A stretch of 37,809 nucleotides of DNA from IMG/VR virus record IMGVR_UViG_3300032053_000217, positions 1 to 37,809 of that record; one strand, written 5' to 3'. Below, piece after piece: positions 998 to 37,809 of this stretch. The notes beneath the pieces are model-generated. The model was not told where the DNA came from. It worked only from the letters and a program-made list of their open reading frames with translations, and did no database searches. Each line of letters opens with the position of its first letter. Positions within the stretch are counted from its first letter, which is position 1. This DNA comes from a virus. The position numbers and the translations under genes are program-made.

Positions 998-1411
998 ATG
1001 GGTTTTATGAAAATCGCAGAAATTAAAGATGATCCAAAGAATGAAGTGCAGGTGAAAGAAGCAAAGATTGAAGTGATTTCCGAAATGCCGGAAGTTATCG
1101 AGATTCCGGAAGTTACTAAGGCTTCCGGAGTTCCAGTCCCGCCCGTGCTGCGGGCTGAACCGGAAGAACCATCGATCAGAATAGCTGCGGAAGAAGAACA
1201 TCCATTAACCGGCCGGGCTCAGCCGGTGAAGAATCCCGTTCCTTCCCGAAAGATTGACACTATCGATCCTAAATTAATTTCACCGGAAGGACGGAAAGCA
1301 CTGGCAAAGGCAGGAATTCCTGAAACTGAGATTGTAAATTTCAAAGATTATTCTGATAAAATAGTGGTTATAACCGCCGCATTCAAGAAGGTCTCAATAA
1401 CGAAATTATGA
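998..1411 (+). CDS. Small acidic hypothetical protein between MuF and the polyprotein
   Basis: 137 residues, not recognised. ATG 998 follows AGGAGG with good spacing. The middle is Pro/Glu-rich and probably disordered (residues 25-75). The C-terminal 50 residues look folded, with a segment like DYSDKIVVITAAFKKV. Its stop TGA overlaps the ATG of the giant downstream gene as ATGA, so the two are translated together. It may act as a linker or tether for the polyprotein, but that is guesswork from position. Confidence 0.7.
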   Translation: MGFMKIAEIKDDPKNEVQVKEAKIEVISEMPEVIEIPEVTKASGVPVPPVLRAEPEEPSIRIAAEEEHPLTGRAQPVKNPVPSRKIDTIDPKLISPEGRKALAKAGIPETEIVNFKDYSDKIVVITAAFKKVSITKL

Positions 1412-4400
1412 ATGTTTTAAATATAAAATTTTTAGGCACTAAAGGCGGAATTGAGGAGCAGTCGCCGGATCATAAAAAGATGACTGCCGTCCTTTTGTCT
1501 TACAATGCCAAAAAATTACTGATCGACTTTGGGAAAGGGAATGATCCAAAAACTTTAAACGATATAAAACCGGATTTGATTCTTCTTTCCCACGGACATA
1601 CCGGCCATATCGGAGGCTTAGAAAATGGTGCGATTACATATCCGATTTATGGAATTAAAAATGCACTGGATAATATCGAAGGAGCGGATAAAACTGAGAT
1701 TAAAGCGGGTGAAGCTTTTAATCTGGCTGATTTTAAGATTATTCCGATAGAGGTTTATCATTCCGCTAAATTCCCCGCTTATGGATTTATTATTCAGGCG
1801 GACGGTCAAAAGATAGGAATTTTTACCGATGTTCTTTCCATTCCTAACCGCGCGGAAGTATTGAAAGGTTTGGATTTATACATCGGCGGCGGCTCTTCCC
1901 TTGAAAATAATTTAGTCCGGGTTGACCCGGAAACCAAACAAGCTTACGGCCATTCTTCAATCAAAACTCAAATTGTTTGGCTGAAAGAGGCTGGTATTAC
2001 TTTGGCAGTCTGGACTCATTTCGGGAAAGAAGCGGTAGAATTGGGCGGTGAAAAATTAACTCAAAAGATAAAAGAATTGAGCGGGAGTAATTTACAATCC
2101 GAGACAGCCAAAGACGGGCGGGTTTTTAATTTCCAAATTCAAGAACCCGATCAAGAAGAAGAAATTGAAGAAATTGAAGGTGATGAATTGTTAGAAGTAA
2201 TTCGGCGGCCGTTCGGAAGTCCGGGAGGAAAGAGCAGGGCTGCGGATTTAATTATTAAATATTTTCCTTCCCACGAAACTTACGTCGAATCGTTCATCGG
2301 CGGAGGAGCAATTCTTTTCCATAAGAAGCCGTCAACGGAAGAAATTATTAATGATAAAGATCCGTTAATTTCTAATGCTTATAAAGTTTTGAAAGAGGAA
2401 AATATAAATAAAATAAAAGCCGGTTCGTCGCAGAGAGATTGGAGTTTCAATGAAGAAAGAATTAGAAAATGTTTTGCGAGTAAGGAAAAGGGAATCACGG
2501 GGTATTTAGATTTTATGTATGGATTACGAAATAGTTTTTCTGGGAATAGAAAAAGCATTTCTTATACTTCTGTAAATTATGGGAAGGAACCTAACTTCTC
2601 TAATTTAGAAAAAGTTCAGGAAAGATTAAAAAATGTGAAAATTCTTAATCAGGATTGGATTTATACTTTAAAATATGATTCACCGGGTACTTTCTTTTAT
2701 TTTGATCCTCCTTATCCCGGTGAATGGCCGGGGCCGGATCTTGGTTTTGATTTAGAAAATTTTGTTAAATCCCTTTCAAAAATCAAGGGAAAATTCATTT
2801 GTTCTATAAATAAAGAAAATAAAAAATTCTTTAATGATAATGAATGGTTCTTCAAAAGTTTCAAAATGAAAAGAATATTTAAGAATTCAATGAAAGAAGA
2901 TGTAGAACTTTTAGTTTCTAATTTCCCAATGAAGAAAAATTCAGATTGGTTAGCCGAAGCAGTACTGCCGTATAGACCGGAAGAAATGACCGATGAACAA
3001 TTAGCCGATGACCGGCGAATCACGGGAGGCTGGTATTCAACTCTGAAAGACACGGGAAATTTCAAATATACCAAAGGTGAAATTTTAAATAAATTTTTAA
3101 TTCCTAATCTCACTGAGATTTTAAAACGAGGAAAAATAACTTTTCACCCCGAAGAATGGAAAGCTGCTCCCAAAGAAATTTATCTGGAAGCATTTAAAAA
3201 TATTGTCAAGGATGGTCTGTATTTAGTTCCCCCTCACGGACAGTTAATTTATGAAGGGAAGAAAACCGTCATTGTTAAAGCCCAGAATTTTGATTTAACC
3301 AAACCGAGAATTTTAATCTCCGGCGGTAAGGCGTATGGAATCGTCCGCACCGAAGAATCCCGGGTGATTTCTTTAGATGAATTTGATAAATTAAGAAACG
3401 AACATCAGATTACGAAAGAGGAGCAGACAGAACGGGGAAAGGAAATAAAAGGTTTTGCTGCCGGCCCGGTTTACTGCTTCAAAATCAGGGATTTTATTCC
3501 ATTTTCAAAACCCTTAACCATTGAGAAGCCGGAAATAGGCACTCAAGGTTTTATTAAAAATGTAAAGTTCCTTGAAGAAACCTTTGACCAAAATCTGTTC
3601 GCTCCGCAAGAATTAGAAAAACTTGACGATTTGGATTTACTCAGACGGCATGCTGATATTCATCAAATTTGGATTGAGCGCGGAGCAAGAAGTAATGATG
3701 AAGAAGTAATTAATTCTCATTTGTTCGTAGTTCAGGAATTAAAAAAGAGAGGATTAATTCACCGCCCGAAATCAGTTTTAGATGAAATAACTCTTACTCT
3801 TGGCGGTGACGGGGCTTCATTAAAAGAATTTCTTGATTTGTTTCCCAAAGAAGGTTTCTGTTTGCAAAATCCTTTGGCTTCATTGATTGGCTCAACGGTT
3901 GTTAATGGTTACGGGAATGATTACGATTTCCATATTTATGACGGAGTGCTTTCCCCAAGGGGAATGGAAGTGTTAGATTTTTGTCTGAAAGAAATGTTAC
4001 CGGAAAAAATAAAACTCAAAAGACACCTGGTTCCCTCCGCTTCGCCGTTCACCAATTATTTACCATTTTTAAAATTGAAAGTAGAACCGATTGCTAAAGA
4101 AGATTTGCAATTAATCCGTATGAGCGAAACATTTCAAGATGATGCTGAAAAATCCATTTCCGAAGATAAAATTGAAATATTCCGCTTCTTTAAACCATTG
4201 AAAGCGCAGGCCGGATATCGTGAACGAGAAGTCTATAATATTGAAGGACTGTTAAAAGTTTTACGGAAAGAGGATTATCCCTACATTGTTGACCAGAAAT
4301 TTGACGGCGAAAGAGTGGTGGTACATAAGAAAGGAAAAGAAGTGAGAATGTTTTCGGAAGACGGCGCGGAAATAAATCTAAATCAGATCCCTTCCACAGT

Positions 4401-6834
4401 TAAGGAAATTTCCGAAATCACTAATTCCGATTCTTTTATTCTTGATTGTGAAGGCGAAATCTGGTTAGGGAACAGGCATTTGGGAAGATCAGATACTTCT
4501 GGATACTTAAAATCAGAAGTTTTTAATCCTTTGATGGACAGGGGTTTCCGCCTTAATGCTTTTACGATTCTTTATGAAAATGAAAAAGATTTACATAACG
4601 AAACCGAACTGGCAAGGAAAGAATTACTTGACCAGTTTAAATCCGGGGAGCATTTGAATATTGCTGATTATATTTTAGCAAAAGATGAAAATGATATTAG
4701 AAATGCGGTTAAGGAATTTGCCAAGATAAAATATTCCGAAGGCGGAATGGTTAAAGCCGCTTCCTCCAAATATTTTTTGACCGGACAGGCGGGTTCGTGG
4801 TGGACAAAGTTTAAAAATGAAACTGATATTGATGCCGAAGTAATTGATGTTCACCCGGTCAAAGGAACGGATGCTTATAATTACCTTTGCATAATCAGGG
4901 ATGATCAAGGAAATCCTCTGCCGATTGGGCGGACTTATAATGTAAGATTTGAAGATGCGGACGGTAAACCGTTTGGTTTAAAAGCGGGCGATATCATCAG
5001 GGTTGCTTTTGTAAATCTTAACCGCTATACCGACGAGAAGACCGGAAAGATTTGGTTTAACTGGTGGGCGCCAAGACCGATTGAACCGAGAGAAGATAAA
5101 AAGAAACCAGATACGAAAGATGCCGCTGATCAGTTAGTCATTGCCACTCACGGTGAAATTGGTTTAAAACCGTTTCCCAAAAGATATGAAGAAATATTTA
5201 AGATTTTAAGAGGCGAAGTTAAGAAAGAAGATTTAATTGATTCGTTAAAAGATAATGCTGACTATATTGATTTTATGTTTAATCATTTCGGACTTGAAAA
5301 AGAAGGTATTCAAGATAATTTACTCGATGAAGCAGTCCGGGAAATGCCGGTTACGAATATTCAAATGCCGGAAGAGTTAAAGGAAATATTTAAAACTAAA
5401 AATCCTGCGGATTATCCCCTTAATTTTTCAATTTTAGTCCTTCATTTTCGCGGAAAATCTGTTCATATTGACTTCCGGCGCAAGCAAGATGAGCATTTAG
5501 AAGGTGAAACTATCTTAAATGCTTATCCCGGTCAAGTTACAGAGGCTATCGACACGATCGAAAAAGGTAAGAGATGGGCGGAAATCCTCTTGAAAGAAGG
5601 AAAATTTACCCCGGATATGAATCCAGCGAAGGTTAAAGTAGTAATTATTCCAAAAGCAGCGCAGCCGATTGATTGGTTAAATATCCGGGAAGTGAAGTTT
5701 GAACCCGGCGAAGTAGGCGCGACCCGTTTCGAGCCCGGCGTTTTCATCACTTTGGATGACGGAATTGTTTATCCTGGAGTTCAAAAACCTTATTTCAAAG
5801 AGTTTTTCTTTGCTATGAGCCGCTTTAAAGGGCGGATGGCGGAAAGATTAATTGGAGTGAGCGAAAAGTGGCTGACCCTTCCCAAAGAAGGCGTCCAGTG
5901 GCAAGCGTGGATGACGAAGAAAGACTTCCAGAACCAAGTTCCTTATCTTCTGACCAAAAGAGGACGGGAAAAGGCGGATTACGTTCCGGCTGACGGCGAG
6001 AAAGCCGTACCGCCGGAATGGGAAAAAGAAATCAAGCCTGAATTTCAGTGGTGGCTTCCAAATTTGACTGGGGAAGAGAAATTAAAACGATTAGACGATG
6101 CTTATGAAGATTTGGTAAAAAGAAATCTTTTAAAAGAAAAATCTTTGAAAGCCAATGTCAAAGAAGACATCGGAAAATTTACTTTAAGAAAAGTTTGGTG
6201 GATGGGACAACAGGTTATTCGTTCAATGCCGGTTGAAAAATGGGAAATTCTTATTGACCAAGGAAGAGATTATCTTGATGTTTTTGAATTAGAAGAAAAT
6301 CCGCTGTTCAATGAGAAAGCTCCGGGGCTTAGAAAAACTTTAAAAGAAAAAACGCCTGAGGACAAACCATTCCCTGAATGGATGAATTGGCAAGGGCATA
6401 TAATCGGAATTAATGTTACTCCCGGCAAAGGTATTATCAATAAAAATCTCGGGAATGGAGTTTATGAAGTGCAGTCTAAATCGGGAAAATACGAAACAGA
6501 AAATTTTACCTCCACCGGCACCCCGCAGGAGTTTAATTCCGGTGAAGAAATTTATTATACAGTCTTTGGGGATAAGAATTATATTTATTCTGGTAAAGGA
6601 ACCGATGGTAATCCTAATAAAGAAATTCCCATTACGGTAGAAATTCTTGATCAGGGAAAAGTTAATTGGCTGGAAGATTCCGACCAGTCCGCCTCATTAA
6701 AATTTGAAGGAAAGAATTTGAAAGGATATAGAATTTTTAAACGGACAAGTCCTGATTCATCTATCTGGGTATTTTTATTATCCCGATTACCGGGTCAAAC
6801 TAAAAAGGAGTTAAAACTATGCTTGAAAAATTAA
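1408..6834 (+). CDS. Giant polyvalent protein: MBL fold, Dam methylase, ASCH-like, NTase, DNA ligase, phosphoesterase-like
   Basis: 1,808 residues in one uninterrupted frame. Domains in order: a metallo-beta-lactamase fold (1-245) with HGHTGH at 62-67, later ligands H118, D141, H182 and H204, and Gly in place of the usual motif Asp at 66; a Dam-type N6-adenine methylase (265-507) with SFIGGGAI at 295-302 and DPPY at 433-436; an ASCH/PUA-like segment (about 604-700, EGKKTVIVK); a helical segment (730-795); a nucleotidyltransferase motif with G828-S829 and D838-x-D840; an ATP-dependent DNA ligase (about 925-1225) with KFDGER at 964-969, DCEGE at 1013-1017, EGGMVK at 1111-1116, WWTKFK at 1131-1136 and an OB-like part after that; and a LigD phosphoesterase-like block (HFRGKSVHIDFR at 1346-1357). 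The last 450 residues are unassigned. It sits between MuF and capsid genes, as polyvalent proteins that enter the host with phage DNA often do. The role, protecting or repairing incoming DNA, is inferred. Confidence 0.85.
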   Translation: MNVLNIKFLGTKGGIEEQSPDHKKMTAVLLSYNAKKLLIDFGKGNDPKTLNDIKPDLILLSHGHTGHIGGLENGAITYPIYGIKNALDNIEGADKTEIKAGEAFNLADFKIIPIEVYHSAKFPAYGFIIQADGQKIGIFTDVLSIPNRAEVLKGLDLYIGGGSSLENNLVRVDPETKQAYGHSSIKTQIVWLKEAGITLAVWTHFGKEAVELGGEKLTQKIKELSGSNLQSETAKDGRVFNFQIQEPDQEEEIEEIEGDELLEVIRRPFGSPGGKSRAADLIIKYFPSHETYVESFIGGGAILFHKKPSTEEIINDKDPLISNAYKVLKEENINKIKAGSSQRDWSFNEERIRKCFASKEKGITGYLDFMYGLRNSFSGNRKSISYTSVNYGKEPNFSNLEKVQERLKNVKILNQDWIYTLKYDSPGTFFYFDPPYPGEWPGPDLGFDLENFVKSLSKIKGKFICSINKENKKFFNDNEWFFKSFKMKRIFKNSMKEDVELLVSNFPMKKNSDWLAEAVLPYRPEEMTDEQLADDRRITGGWYSTLKDTGNFKYTKGEILNKFLIPNLTEILKRGKITFHPEEWKAAPKEIYLEAFKNIVKDGLYLVPPHGQLIYEGKKTVIVKAQNFDLTKPRILISGGKAYGIVRTEESRVISLDEFDKLRNEHQITKEEQTERGKEIKGFAAGPVYCFKIRDFIPFSKPLTIEKPEIGTQGFIKNVKFLEETFDQNLFAPQELEKLDDLDLLRRHADIHQIWIERGARSNDEEVINSHLFVVQELKKRGLIHRPKSVLDEITLTLGGDGASLKEFLDLFPKEGFCLQNPLASLIGSTVVNGYGNDYDFHIYDGVLSPRGMEVLDFCLKEMLPEKIKLKRHLVPSASPFTNYLPFLKLKVEPIAKEDLQLIRMSETFQDDAEKSISEDKIEIFRFFKPLKAQAGYREREVYNIEGLLKVLRKEDYPYIVDQKFDGERVVVHKKGKEVRMFSEDGAEINLNQIPSTVKEISEITNSDSFILDCEGEIWLGNRHLGRSDTSGYLKSEVFNPLMDRGFRLNAFTILYENEKDLHNETELARKELLDQFKSGEHLNIADYILAKDENDIRNAVKEFAKIKYSEGGMVKAASSKYFLTGQAGSWWTKFKNETDIDAEVIDVHPVKGTDAYNYLCIIRDDQGNPLPIGRTYNVRFEDADGKPFGLKAGDIIRVAFVNLNRYTDEKTGKIWFNWWAPRPIEPREDKKKPDTKDAADQLVIATHGEIGLKPFPKRYEEIFKILRGEVKKEDLIDSLKDNADYIDFMFNHFGLEKEGIQDNLLDEAVREMPVTNIQMPEELKEIFKTKNPADYPLNFSILVLHFRGKSVHIDFRRKQDEHLEGETILNAYPGQVTEAIDTIEKGKRWAEILLKEGKFTPDMNPAKVKVVIIPKAAQPIDWLNIREVKFEPGEVGATRFEPGVFITLDDGIVYPGVQKPYFKEFFFAMSRFKGRMAERLIGVSEKWLTLPKEGVQWQAWMTKKDFQNQVPYLLTKRGREKADYVPADGEKAVPPEWEKEIKPEFQWWLPNLTGEEKLKRLDDAYEDLVKRNLLKEKSLKANVKEDIGKFTLRKVWWMGQQVIRSMPVEKWEILIDQGRDYLDVFELEENPLFNEKAPGLRKTLKEKTPEDKPFPEWMNWQGHIIGINVTPGKGIINKNLGNGVYEVQSKSGKYETENFTSTGTPQEFNSGEEIYYTVFGDKNYIYSGKGTDGNPNKEIPITVEILDQGKVNWLEDSDQSASLKFEGKNLKGYRIFKRTSPDSSIWVFLLSRLPGQTKKELKLCLKN

Positions 6835-19848: not shown

Positions 19849-20213
19849 TGAGTGTAATGAAATTGACCCAGGGACTTTTAGAGGTAAATTTTGATCCGGC
19901 ATCGGGGTATCGGATGCCTAATTTAGAAAGGAACGTCCGTCACCGGATGGTTAATGGTACGGAAAAGATTCATCAATGGTACGCAAAAGGAAAATGGGAT
20001 ATTCCCATTGTCTTTTTGCCCAGAGTTGATGCCGATGTCATAAATACTTGGGCGGAGAATAAAACTCAATTAACTTTTTATCCTGATTTAATAAATAGCC
20101 CCGGAACTTCTTATATTATTAGATTCAAGAATGATGAAAAGCCGCTGGATGCTCTTTCCGGCCCTTATTGGCATATTTATTATGGCGGAACTTTAACTCT
20201 GGAGGAAATTTAA
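19848..20213 (+). CDS. Small distal tail protein
   Basis: 121 residues. TAATG couples it to the tape measure gene, and GAGGTGG lies upstream. The place is that of a distal tail (Dit-like) or tail-completion protein, though 121 residues is shorter than most Dit proteins. The C-terminus YGGTLTLEEI resembles many small phage tail proteins. It is unlikely to be cytoplasmic. Confidence 0.55.
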   Translation: MSVMKLTQGLLEVNFDPASGYRMPNLERNVRHRMVNGTEKIHQWYAKGKWDIPIVFLPRVDADVINTWAENKTQLTFYPDLINSPGTSYIIRFKNDEKPLDALSGPYWHIYYGGTLTLEEI

Positions 20214-25229: not shown

Positions 25230-25577
25230 AACTCCTTAATTAATTTTTATAATTCTCGCCGTTACCATCACCGGTACCGTCACTGTAACCGTAGCCGGTA
25301 CCGTCACCGTAACCGTCACCTTCACCGTCACCATCACCGTCACCATCACCGTAACCTTCGCCGTAACCGGTACCATCACAGTTTCCGGCACCGTCACCGT
25401 AACCGAAGCCGGCACCGGTGCCGTCGTGGAAACCGCCGTCGGAAAGATAAGGGTTACCGTAACTGTAACCGGTACCGTCACCGTAACCGTCACCGGTGCC
25501 GACACCGGCACCGGAATAAACGTAACTTTCGCCGGAACTACTGTTCATTTTTTTTCTATTTCCCATGTCGGAACTCC
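25226..25577. repeat. 10-bp direct repeats flanking Gly-rich repeat gene A
   Basis: TCGGAACTCC occurs at 25226-25235 and at 25568-25577, on either side of the repeat gene. Similar GGAACTCC or GGAAGGCTCC sequences flank copy C (33087-33094 and about 32805-32814). This would fit insertion of the repeat gene as a cassette, though the repeats could also be ancestral 3' end sequence duplicated with it. Confidence 0.5.
25240..25548 (-). CDS. Gly-X low-complexity repeat protein, copy A
   Basis: About 102 residues. The DNA is a hexamer array (consensus plus strand ACCGTM), so the protein is an almost unbroken run of dipeptides: Gly followed by Asp, Tyr, Thr, Ala or Ser. The non-repetitive part is an N-terminal SYVYSGAG and an internal NPYL-x4-FHDGTG, shared with copy C. 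ATG 25548 overlaps the stop of the Mor-like gene as ATGA. That gene ends with A AAA AAA before the TGA, a slippery site that could also yield a -1 frameshift fusion. Other frames are open too, since the hexamer has no stop codons. Function unknown. Confidence 0.65.
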   Translation of the reverse strand: MNSSSGESYVYSGAGVGTGDGYGDGTGYSYGNPYLSDGGFHDGTGAGFGYGDGAGNCDGTGYGEGYGDGDGDGDGEGDGYGDGTGYGYSDGTGDGNGENYKN

Positions 25578-26266: not shown

Positions 26267-26620
26267 TTATCTTGGTGTTCCACCGTCACCGGTACCGTCA
26301 CCGGAACCCCAGCCGGTACCATCACCGTCATCGTCACCTTCCCCGTTACCGCCGCCGTCACCATAACCGTCACCGTAACCGTAACCGGTACTGTCGCCAT
26401 AACCGTCACCGCAACCGGCACCGTCACCGGAACTGTCACCATAACCGTCACCGTAACCGGCACCGTAGCTGGTACCGTCACTATAACCGTAGCCGGTACC
26501 GTCACCGTAACCGTCACCATCACCATAACCGTCACCTTCGCCGTCACCGTAACCGGCACCGGAATAAATGTAACTTTCACCGGAACTACTGATTTCTTTT
26601 TCTGTTATAATTTTTTCCAT
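26267..26620 (-). CDS. Gly-X low-complexity repeat protein, copy B
   Basis: 117 residues. It shares SSSGESYIYSGAG with copy A (SSSGESYVYSGAG), then runs as Gly-Asp/Gly-Tyr/Gly-Thr dipeptides almost to the end (GDGGTPR). It lacks the NPYL-x4-FHDGTG part of copies A and C. Unlike those, it has its own ribosome binding site: AGGAGGTG inside the last codons of the replication gene. Its end is about 50 bases from the resolvase start. Confidence 0.65.
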   Translation of the reverse strand: MEKIITEKEISSSGESYIYSGAGYGDGEGDGYGDGDGYGDGTGYGYSDGTSYGAGYGDGYGDSSGDGAGCGDGYGDSTGYGYGDGYGDGGGNGEGDDDGDGTGWGSGDGTGDGGTPR

Positions 26621-32019: not shown

Positions 32020-32053
32020 CAAGAGGTTGGGAGATATCGGGTATTTATGATCG
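32020..32053. repeat. Spacer-like direct repeat, copy 1
   Basis: 34 bases identical to 32087-32120. It is followed by one extra base (C32054), absent from copy 2, then the CRISPR repeat. On the minus strand it sits where a spacer would, directly after GATTGAAAC. Confidence 0.9.
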
Positions 32054-32054
32054 C

Positions 32055-32086
32055 GTTTCAATCCACGCACCCACGCGGGGTGCGAC
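32055..32086 (-). CRISPR. Solitary type I-C-like CRISPR repeat
   Basis: 32 bases; read on the minus strand, it begins GTCGCACC and ends GTGGATTGAAAC, with an internal CCCCGCGTGGG palindrome, matching the well-known type I-C repeat family. There is only one repeat, so this is not an array, and no cas genes are in the window. It lies between two identical 34-bp sequences of the transposase gene. The unit of 35 (spacer) + 32 (repeat) = 67 bp is the length of one array period. Confidence 0.85.
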
Positions 32087-32120
32087 CAAGAGGTTGGGAG
32101 ATATCGGGTATTTATGATCG
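32087..32120. repeat. Spacer-like direct repeat, copy 2 (protospacer context)
   Basis: 34 bases identical to 32020-32053. On the minus strand it is preceded by TTC, the established type I-C protospacer-adjacent motif, so this copy keeps the native transposase context. Confidence 0.85.
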
Positions 32121-32825: not shown

Positions 32826-33071
32826 TTATATTCCGCCGTTACCATCACCGGCACCGTCACCGGAACCGCAGCCGGTACCGTCACTGTAACGGTCACCGTA
32901 ACCGGTACCATCACCGGCACCGGCACCGTCACCGTAACCGTAACCGTAACCGGTGCCGTCGTGGAAACCGACGTGGGCAAGATAAGGGTTACTGTAACTG
33001 TAACCGGAACCGTCACCGTAACCGTCACCGGTGCCGTCACCGGCACCGGAATAAACGTAACTTTTCTTCAT
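32826..33071 (-). CDS. Gly-X low-complexity repeat protein, copy C
   Basis: About 81 residues. ATG 33071 overlaps the stop of the DUF6948-like gene as ATGA. It begins KKSYVYSGAGDG and carries NPYL-x4-FHDGTG like copy A, followed by Gly-Asp, Gly-Tyr and Gly-Ala dipeptides. The sequence after the stop (CCTTAATTAATTTTTATA on the plus strand) matches the end of copy A base for base, so A and C arose by duplication of a whole cassette, not only of the coding part. Confidence 0.65.
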   Translation of the reverse strand: MKKSYVYSGAGDGTGDGYGDGSGYSYSNPYLAHVGFHDGTGYGYGYGDGAGAGDGTGYGDRYSDGTGCGSGDGAGDGNGGI

Positions 33072-33436
33072 TTTATTTCCCATAGAGGAACTCCCTTTAT
33101 GGACCTCTCCGCCTCGGCGCTTACGTCCAGAATTTCTATTGCTTGCAGCAATTCTACTATCGCGACCTCACACGGGAATTTGCAGCTTTCCGGTTCTTTT
33201 GTTCCTTCCATCGCGAGCTGACTTAGGCTCGCCGCCCCAAACCATTGCCATAATCTGCGGGCTTTTAACAGCACTACTTCCTGGCCGGTCCTGCTCTTTA
33301 GGTAGCCCGCAAAAACTCCGGCTGAGTACGTACGGACAATGACATACCTCATCCCGTCCCAATTTCCCGCCATTTTAATTTCCGTTCCCGCCTTGGGTAC
33401 GAATTCTACTCCATCAATACTTACTTCTTTCCTCAT
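33068..33436 (-). CDS. DUF6948-like early phage protein
   Basis: 122 residues. The stretch VIVRTYSAGVFAGYLKSR, then VVLLKARRLWQWFGAASL and CKFPCEVAIVELLQAIEI, is a pattern I recall from a phage family known as DUF6948, for which no function is known. It is the first gene after the leftward promoter at 33494-33522, with AGGAGG before ATG 33436. Its GC content is higher than that of the genes further down, which suggests transfer together with the Gly-rich gene C that follows it. Confidence 0.6.
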   Translation of the reverse strand: MRKEVSIDGVEFVPKAGTEIKMAGNWDGMRYVIVRTYSAGVFAGYLKSRTGQEVVLLKARRLWQWFGAASLSQLAMEGTKEPESCKFPCEVAIVELLQAIEILDVSAEAERSIKGVPLWEIK

Positions 33437-33522: not shown

Positions 33523-33621
33523 GGCGAAAATAAAAATATATTTTTTCGAAAATTACAAGCATTTTTCCCGCGCCGGTCCGGCGGTAAATTGCCGGCCGTA
33601 ATAATTTATTTGCGGCAATCC

Positions 33622-33745
33622 TAAAAAAAGAGGGTTACGGCTGGACACCTTCCCTGCCTCTCGGCAAGGTGACAGTTTTGACCGTAACCCGTTATAAACA
33701 AAAAAACTGTCCTTATTAGTGTCCATTTTTTTTCTCTTATTACTT
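33622..33745 (-). ncRNA. Candidate small structured RNA (promoter-pseudoknot-terminator)
   Basis: Read on the minus strand, a consensus promoter is followed after some 30 bases by GACAGTTTT (33703-33711), GGGTTACGG (33682-33690), AAAACTGTC (33671-33679), a hairpin CACCTT/AAGGTG (33646-33671), CCGTAACCC (33632-33640) and TCTTTTTTT (33623-33631). The two 9-bp stems interlock, forming a pseudoknot, and the last stem with its T-run reads as a terminator. This yields a compact RNA of about 120 bases. A frame of 57 codons starting MDTNKDSF crosses the same region but has only a weak ribosome binding site. Confidence 0.6.
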
Positions 33746-33751
33746 GCCCAA

Positions 33752-33780
33752 ATTATATAAACTAATTTTTTAATTGTCAA
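33752..33780 (-). promoter_or_regulatory. Consensus promoter of the candidate small RNA
   Basis: On the minus strand TTGACA (33775-33780), a 17-base spacer and TATAAT (33752-33757): a perfect sigma70 consensus at both boxes. Transcription would start near 33745 and run into the pseudoknot unit. Confidence 0.85.
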
Positions 33781-34276: not shown

Positions 34277-34317
34277 TAGTTAGTTATTCTTTATTATTTG
34301 TTACATATAATATAAGT

Positions 34318-34366
34318 ATATAAGATATAAGATATAAGATATAAGATATAAGATATAAGAGATAAG
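34318..34366 (+). repeat. Heptamer tandem repeat 1 (ATATAAG)
   Basis: Six perfect copies of ATATAAG (34318-34359) and a seventh variant AGATAAG. It is the first of three successive families of 7-bp repeats in the 504-base gene-free gap 34277-34780. Confidence 0.9.
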
Positions 34367-34384
34367 AGATGAAAAAGATGAACT

Positions 34385-34419
34385 ATGAGATATGAGATAT
34401 GAGATATGAGATATGAGAT
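34385..34419 (+). repeat. Heptamer tandem repeat 2 (ATGAGAT)
   Basis: Five perfect copies of ATGAGAT. In rotated form (AGATATG) it differs from family 1 (AGATATA) by one base. It is followed by purine-rich sequence to 34480. Confidence 0.9.
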
Positions 34420-34453
34420 AAGAGAGGGAGTGTGAGGGAGAGAAAGAGAAAGG

Positions 34454-34474
34454 AGAAAAGAGAAAAGAGAAAAG
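34454..34474 (+). repeat. Heptamer tandem repeat 3 (AGAAAAG)
   Basis: Three perfect copies of AGAAAAG. Together with families 1 and 2, the plus strand from 34318 to 34478 is almost free of C. Such a tract may melt or form a triplex and could be an origin or packaging signal. Confidence 0.85.
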
Positions 34475-34579
34475 AGAATGGTTTTAAAAATGAAAAGTAG
34501 AGAATTTAGTTCCTCAATAAAAAAAAATTCAATTTTTACTAAGGACTAAGTTAGTAGTTTCCCCTGCTATTTACAACTC

Positions 34580-34604
34580 CGTCGGTAAAATAATTTTACC
34601 GACG
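34580..34604. repeat. Perfect 11-bp inverted repeat upstream of the terminase
   Basis: CGTCGGTAAAA (34580-34590), TAA, TTTTACCGACG (34594-34604). In either direction it can form a hairpin followed by no long T-run, so an operator or packaging-protein site is as likely as a terminator. Confidence 0.7.
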
Positions 34605-36544: not shown

Positions 36545-37809
36545 GCCTAATCAGGATGACGGCTACCGCCGGGTGATTGGCGGCTTAACCCAGGTAACCC
36601 GCGATTTGAACCCGATGACGCAGGAAAATATGCTTAAAATCGTCTATCGGCTTTATATGACCGATCCGCTGGCCCGCAGAATTTTAGAAATTTCCCGGGA
36701 TTTTGCTATTGGCGACGGCTTATCCTTTTCCGCGGTTGATCCAAAAGTTTACGAAATACTTTATGATTTCTGGTATGATCCGGTTAATGATTGGTCGATG
36801 AAGCAATACCGCCGCTGCCTTGAATTAGGTCTTTACGGCGAACAGATTTATCCGGTTTTTGTCAATGAAGTGAACGGCCGGGTGCGGATGGGCTACATTG
36901 ATCCCCTAAACATTTCCAAAATTGAAAATAATCCGGAAAATGCCGAAGAGCCGCGCTGGGTTTTTGTCACGTTCAAAGAAAAACCTTACCGGGTAATTTA
37001 TACCGACTTAGATCCTCAATCTCCGACCTACGACCGCTTAGTGGGTGATGTATTTTTCTTCGCCATTAATAATGTAACCTTGGGAACCCGCGGGATATCG
37101 GATTTACTGCCGTTAGCCGATTTTATTGACGCTTACGGCCAATATTTATTCAATTTGCTCGAACGATCAAGACTTTTGAATGCTTTTATCTGGGACGTGA
37201 CGGTTGAGGGAATGAATCAAGATCAGATTGATGAATATATCGCTAAATTCGGCACGCCGAGGCCGGGTGCGGTCAGGGCGCATAATGAAAAGATTAAATG
37301 GGACGTGGTGTCGCCGAAACTTGAGGCCGCGGATGCTTCCGAAGGGGCAAAACTTTTTCTCACCCATATTTTAGGCGGTGCCGGGCTGCCTTTGCATTAC
37401 TACGCAATGGGCGAGGGAACCACGAGGGCTACCGCGCTTGAAATGGCGGAGCCGGTATTAAAAAGGGCGCAGTCCCGGCGGAAAACATTCGTTTCAATGA
37501 TTGAAAAAATATTTGATTTTGTTATAGACCAAGCCATTATTCACGGAACTCTTCCAGAAAATGTTGATGCCAGATATTCGATCATTATTCCGCCGATTAC
37601 TAAAAGGGATTTGGTTAATCTTTCTTCGGCAATGGCGCAGATTACCACTGCCTTAAGTTTAGCGGAAGATAAAAAATGGATCCAACTTGATTCGGCGAAA
37701 GAAGTATTCACGAATCTTGTTAAAATGTTAGGCTTGGAAATTGAGCAGGTGAAAGCGGAAAATCCCGATGCTGCGGCAAAAGAATCTTTGACTCAAGTTG
37801 AGGAGCGGT
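36507..37809 (+). CDS. Portal protein, 5' part (continues at position 1)
   Basis: The gene starts at GTG 36507 with an AGGAGG ribosome binding site five bases upstream and overlaps the terminase stop at 36544. It runs in frame off the window end and resumes at position 1, ending at TGA 172-174, for about 449 residues. Portal proteins form the dodecameric ring at the capsid vertex through which DNA is packaged and ejected. Visible support: the order terminase-portal-MuF, the early segment with RRILEISRDFAIGDG, the segment IDPLNISKIENNPEN, and a helical region with TRATALEMAEPV near residue 310, typical of portal stem and wing regions. The coiled, charged C-terminus ends VKGLFKPK. The call rests on this pattern and on synteny, not on a database search. 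Confidence 0.88.
   Translation, partial: MEKSESRSLREDKPNQDDGYRRVIGGLTQVTRDLNPMTQENMLKIVYRLYMTDPLARRILEISRDFAIGDGLSFSAVDPKVYEILYDFWYDPVNDWSMKQYRRCLELGLYGEQIYPVFVNEVNGRVRMGYIDPLNISKIENNPENAEEPRWVFVTFKEKPYRVIYTDLDPQSPTYDRLVGDVFFFAINNVTLGTRGISDLLPLADFIDAYGQYLFNLLERSRLLNAFIWDVTVEGMNQDQIDEYIAKFGTPRPGAVRAHNEKIKWDVVSPKLEAADASEGAKLFLTHILGGAGLPLHYYAMGEGTTRATALEMAEPVLKRAQSRRKTFVSMIEKIFDFVIDQAIIHGTLPENVDARYSIIIPPITKRDLVNLSSAMAQITTALSLAEDKKWIQLDSAKEVFTNLVKMLGLEIEQVKAENPDAAAKESLTQVEER
37683..37809. repeat. Terminal direct overlap, right copy (circular contig)
   Basis: Exact copy of positions 1-127. Removing one copy gives a circle of 37,682 bp. The physical ends of the packaged DNA cannot be read from this overlap. 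Confidence 0.95.

Follow-up and report, generated by a model that had tools for sequence, protein, structure and literature searches.

The window considered here, i.e., the whole stretch of DNA that was analysed, is a 37,809-base record of an uncultured phage. Its two ends (positions 1–127 and 37683–37809) are identical over 127 bases, so that the record probably holds a complete genome of ~37.7 kb, and this genome is probably circularly permuted or circular, although the record is classed as linear. The late genes start at terL (34781) and extend rightward over the join as far as ~24.9 kb, and the early genes run leftward from 33436, starting with DUF6948 (33068–33436, minus strand; Pfam PF22253, 1.4e-30) and continuing with RecT-like, exonuclease, SSB-like, and replication initiation genes. 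The element discussed below (33622–33780) is located in the divergent hub that separates these two operons, upstream of terL.

Two further features lie between the hub and terL, namely a 7-base tandem array at 34310–34478, made of 15 copies of ATATAAG and six of GAGAAAA, and a perfect 12-bp palindrome at 34580–34604; both are possibly regulatory or replication related. Elsewhere in the genome, a frame of 1808 aa (1408–6834, plus strand) apparently fuses several enzyme-like parts, recognised by eye only: a metallo-hydrolase-like start, Dam-like methylase motifs, and a ligase-like KxDGxR motif. At 32020–32120, inside the orfB of an IS3-family element, two copies of a 34-nt piece flank a single type I-C-like CRISPR repeat (GTTTCAATCCACGCACCCACGCGGGGTGCGACC). 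The arrangement probably arose when the assembly strayed through a host array holding a spacer against this IS, the alternative reading being a real insertion. The host was searched for by means of the transposase, which gave matches of only 47–49%, and a search for tRNA and tmRNA genes found none.

The predicted transcription unit and its helices

The element opens with a promoter, TTGACA-17-TATAAT, at 33780–33752 on the minus strand, which is A-rich upstream and matches the sigma-70 consensus at 12 of 12 positions. It is the sole perfect one in the window, and dinucleotide-shuffled windows contain 0.023 of them on average. At the other end, a T-run (TCTTTTTTT, 33631–33623, minus strand) directly follows the last helix strand and forms the tail of a putative intrinsic terminator. 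From the promoter spacing and the terminator, a self-contained RNA of about 123 nt is predicted, reading on the minus strand from about 33745 to 33623. The leftward operon has a separate promoter 100 bp past this terminator, TTGACA-17-TATACT with a TG before the −10 (33522–33494, minus strand; 11 of 12 positions). The original prediction of a perfect promoter, a T-run terminator, and parts fitting one RNA of about 120 bases ahead of the operon promoter thus agrees with what the sequence holds at each of these points.

Read from 5′ to 3′, the RNA consists of an A-rich tail, a, UAAUAAG, b, UUUGUUUAUAAC, c, UC, b′, A, d, AAG, a′, G, c′, and TCTTTTTTT, where the letters denote helix strands, all on the minus strand. 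Helix b is a perfect 9-bp stem between GACAGTTTT (33711–33703) and AAAACTGTC (33679–33671). Helix c, equally perfect over 9 bp, joins GGGTTACGG (33690–33682), which lies within the loop of b, to CCGTAACCC (33640–33632), the 3′ strand of the terminator stem. These are the two interlocking stems that had been proposed, and they do cross. The internal hairpin that had also been described corresponds to d (33669–33652), in which CCTTGCC and GGCAGGG form 7 bp with one G-U pair around a GAGA loop of the GNRA type. A third perfect stem, absent from the earlier description, is helix a, in which TGGACAC (33725–33719) pairs with GTGTCCA (33648–33642) over 7 bp; it is nested around b, where it closes a three-way junction, and it also crosses c. 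A second copy of the stem c motif (TTACGGCCGG, minus strand; 33592–33601 with 33635–33644) lies ~20–30 nt beyond the terminator; in a read-through RNA, it could pair with c′.

As for an H-type pseudoknot, two crossing helices are possible. The 5′ strand of c sits in the 23-nt loop of b, and for this reason c can pair without opening b; in the pseudoknotted form, c as the second helix would abut the U-run. Since a single nucleotide separates a′ from c′, all four helices could coexist only with helix a folded back against b. The computed helix energies are −9.7 (a), −9.1 (b), −14.8 (c), and −10.7 (d) kcal/mol, and a nested alternative, in which c is combined with an A/U-rich 5′ hairpin, reaches −39.9 kcal/mol versus −29.4 for a, b, and d without c, so that the pseudoknot is not clearly preferred. 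When c is added to the latter fold with an ordinary pseudoknot penalty, the total comes near the nested optimum by a rough reckoning. The claim of an interlocked pseudoknot therefore stands as far as the crossing helices go, and falls short in that the nested fold has a similar computed energy and the searched collections contain no homologue in which covariation of the stems would show; on these models, a pseudoknot in the predicted RNA is possible.

Shuffled sequences were used to judge how unusual these parts are. When the 125-nt segment was shuffled 2000 times with its dinucleotides preserved, no crossing pair this strong appeared; over the whole window, one arises 0.125 times per shuffle, a rate that falls to 0.0067 when at least six T are required to follow. 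At this window size, the crossing pair alone is only mildly unusual and not decisive; its combination with the T-run and with a perfect promoter alongside would very seldom arise by chance. The folding is also biased toward one strand: the z score of the nested minimum free energy is −3.9 for the minus strand, a value that none of 200 shuffles equalled, and −2.3 for the plus strand. The GNRA loop and the G-U pair of d exist on the minus strand only, which is the strand of the promoter and the T-run.

Searches for relatives and comparison with known RNAs

That the element matches no nameable RNA family holds for Rfam 15, where nothing reached the gathering score and a relaxed threshold returned noise only. 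No homologue was found by blastn among 50,697 isolated phages. Exact patterns for c with b′ and for a′ with c′ found four matches each in IMG/VR, all of them coding-like chance matches that lack the other stems. A covariance model, which recovers itself at 137 bits, found nothing else convincing in the collected loci, in 39 records, in 395 genomes, in 21 records sharing the head protein, or in two genomes with TerL matches; being made from one sequence, it could miss distant homologues. A pseudoknot descriptor run over the DUF6948 loci and the relatives gave chance matches only. Peptides of TerL, head protein, and RecT identified no close relative in IMG/VR, and neither did the TerL peptide in the genomes. 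The closest phages found, L095 and L096 among the head-protein relatives, have TerL proteins 43–44% identical to that of this phage and keep one gene direction up to TerL, with no divergent hub and no such RNA found. Because this phage is without close kin in the searched collections, absence of the element elsewhere is weak evidence.

Among the systems that may be compared with the element, phage-encoded small regulatory RNAs are short, intergenic, and non-coding, with their own promoter and intrinsic terminator (review PMC12197685), and the element shares all of these properties. It differs from them in being an orphan with crossing 9-bp stems and in having neither a sequence nor a structure match in Rfam. 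The antitoxin RNAs of type III toxin-antitoxin systems (ToxI/CptI) consist of pseudoknots built from repeats and have a toxin nuclease as their partner (PMC8860590, PMC4627078). The element resembles them as an RNA with a possible pseudoknot and a terminator ahead of a gene. However, it is one unit rather than a series of short tandem repeats (no repeat array occurs in 33623–33745), and the downstream gene has its own promoter, is DUF6948 by Pfam with no PADLOC match, and is not a recognised member of a toxin family of the ToxN/CptN/TenpN kind.

RNA anti-CRISPRs (Racrs) mimic CRISPR repeats (PMC10651486), and the element, likewise a small phage RNA, could act as a decoy; it showed no similarity to the one repeat with which it was compared, the type I-C-like repeat of this contig. 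Finally, the vrRNAs of VIPR are phage RNAs of about 100 nt with 9–16 YNNGG repeats and, in the tail of one clade, a pseudoknot (preprint PMC13142463). The element is alike in its size and its possible pseudoknot, whereas YNNGG tandem repeats are absent from it. The most fitting label for it is that of an unclassified phage small RNA. Few small RNAs of phages are known, most of them from model phages, and an RNA gene with clear boundaries, in which the second helix of a possible pseudoknot doubles as the terminator stem, would make a clean and cheap object for probing.

Possible roles of the element

The compact small-RNA gene of the original prediction is well supported by the promoter, the terminator, the strand-specific folding, and the non-coding composition. 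We favor, with modest confidence, a stand-alone gene for a small structured RNA that is expressed early, ends at its own terminator, and works in trans, most likely as a protein-binding RNA. In such a scheme, the host sigma-70 polymerase would transcribe leftward from the consensus promoter once the phage DNA enters the cell, the early timing being suggested by that host-type promoter, and the ~123-nt RNA would end short of the operon promoter. During its emergence, a, b, and d would fold first into the three-way junction, as prefix folding suggests; the last stem, c, would then pair with the strand in the loop of b and close the pseudoknot, and, as c lies next to the U-run, its formation would end transcription. 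The compact product would work through a host or phage protein and not through base pairing. We lean to protein binding, itself a guess, because most of the RNA is held in stems and because pairing to the phage gene starts is not clearly above shuffled for three of the four segments considered.

A different reading, which we regard as rather unlikely, is that the element serves the leftward early operon as a leader or attenuator: the strong promoter would feed the operon, and a switch between a, b, and d on one side and the c terminator on the other would respond to a ligand, a protein, or a phage antiterminator. The element does read in the direction of the operon and lies just upstream of it. 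Moreover, prefix folding behaves in an attenuator-like manner, the best nested fold at 104–112 nt, before c′ emerges, being a with b and d, and that at 116 nt, with c′ out, changing to the c stem with d and a weak A/U-rich 5′ hairpin. Nevertheless, the pairing of c does not require b to open, meaning that a and b need not block termination, and known riboswitch and leader families in Rfam are unmatched. The near-consensus promoter that the operon has of its own, 100 bp on, makes a leader role less likely, since the RNA is not needed for it.

The A-rich 5′ tail and the U-tail, which are common among Hfq-type sRNAs, would also suit an antisense-type regulator, whose base pairing with mRNAs of the host or the phage would be made by the single-stranded A-rich tail, the UAAUAAG joint, or the U-rich loop. 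An antisense RNA was among the roles suggested originally, beside a decoy and a regulator of lysis or early genes. One segment, the joint ACUAAUAAGGA, pairs with the gene start at 20168 better than shuffled sequences do (P 0.02 before correction for four segments), but for the remaining segments, pairing with the phage's own gene starts does not exceed that of shuffled sequences at P 0.05, no cis-antisense gene is apparent, and the perfect stems lock most of the sequence; we consider such a role improbable.

The position of the element in the divergent early/late hub upstream of terL, together with the fact that inverted repeats also serve as protein-binding sites, would fit a function at the DNA level (as an operator, an origin, or a packaging site), or else a mere terminator or insulator whose RNA serves no purpose in itself. 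An RNA would better explain a consensus promoter just before the repeats, a T-run just after them, and a G-U pair and GNRA loop that are specific to one strand, and in a mere terminator stems a and b would be superfluous, so that we hold these explanations to be quite improbable. That the element is a short protein gene is scarcely credible, because the open frame that overlaps it (ATG at 33725, MDTNKDSF..., 57 aa) passes through the terminator, has no Shine-Dalgarno sequence ahead of it (the neighbouring DUF6948 gene has AGGAGG), finds no match in Pfam or PADLOC, and scores −0.45 bits per codon with the phage's own codon usage, well under the real genes (0.23 ± 0.16) and close to the wrong frames (−0.42).

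The neighbouring DUF6948 gene

If the favored small RNA does bind a protein, the adjacent DUF6948 product, a common phage protein on which a literature search found no paper, is one candidate. Its structure was modeled from 21 relatives (pLDDT 83, pTM 0.74), and the Foldseek matches listed for this model are Sm/LSm chains, many in spliceosome complexes, with a best E of 0.003 and a TM by target of up to 0.67. VIA-align gave Z values of 6–7 over about 60–78 residues, where Z under 8 is not strong. The protein is thus predicted to have an Sm/LSm-like fold and may be a phage RNA-binding protein; the fold alone shows no function. An RRM/RAMP-like fold, as in VIPR, was considered for DUF6948 and set aside, no such chain being among the matches listed.

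The RNA and DUF6948 could together form a phage ribonucleoprotein, with an LSm ring on the U-rich single-stranded loop between the stems and on the U-tail, as a simple analogue of Hfq-sRNA complexes or of an snRNP. We see this as a long shot, as the link comes only from adjacency in one genome, and relatives of DUF6948 elsewhere occur without the RNA. Such binding, if it took place, would give an initial clue to what the DUF6948 family does.

DUF6948 was seen in the window and at loci L006–L036, and its genes are usually followed, directly and on the same strand, by arrays of hexamers (GGY NNN) of 6–40 units. Such arrays lie at 32832–33047, 26279–26560, and 25285–25512 in the window (minus strand) and at L006, L007, L009, L010, L013, L016, L017, L029, and L033–L036. 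Those of the window are probably coding, as they read as Gly-X proteins with similar N-termini. The arrays also recall the GGY/NN guide RNAs, the fixed GGY being present in both.
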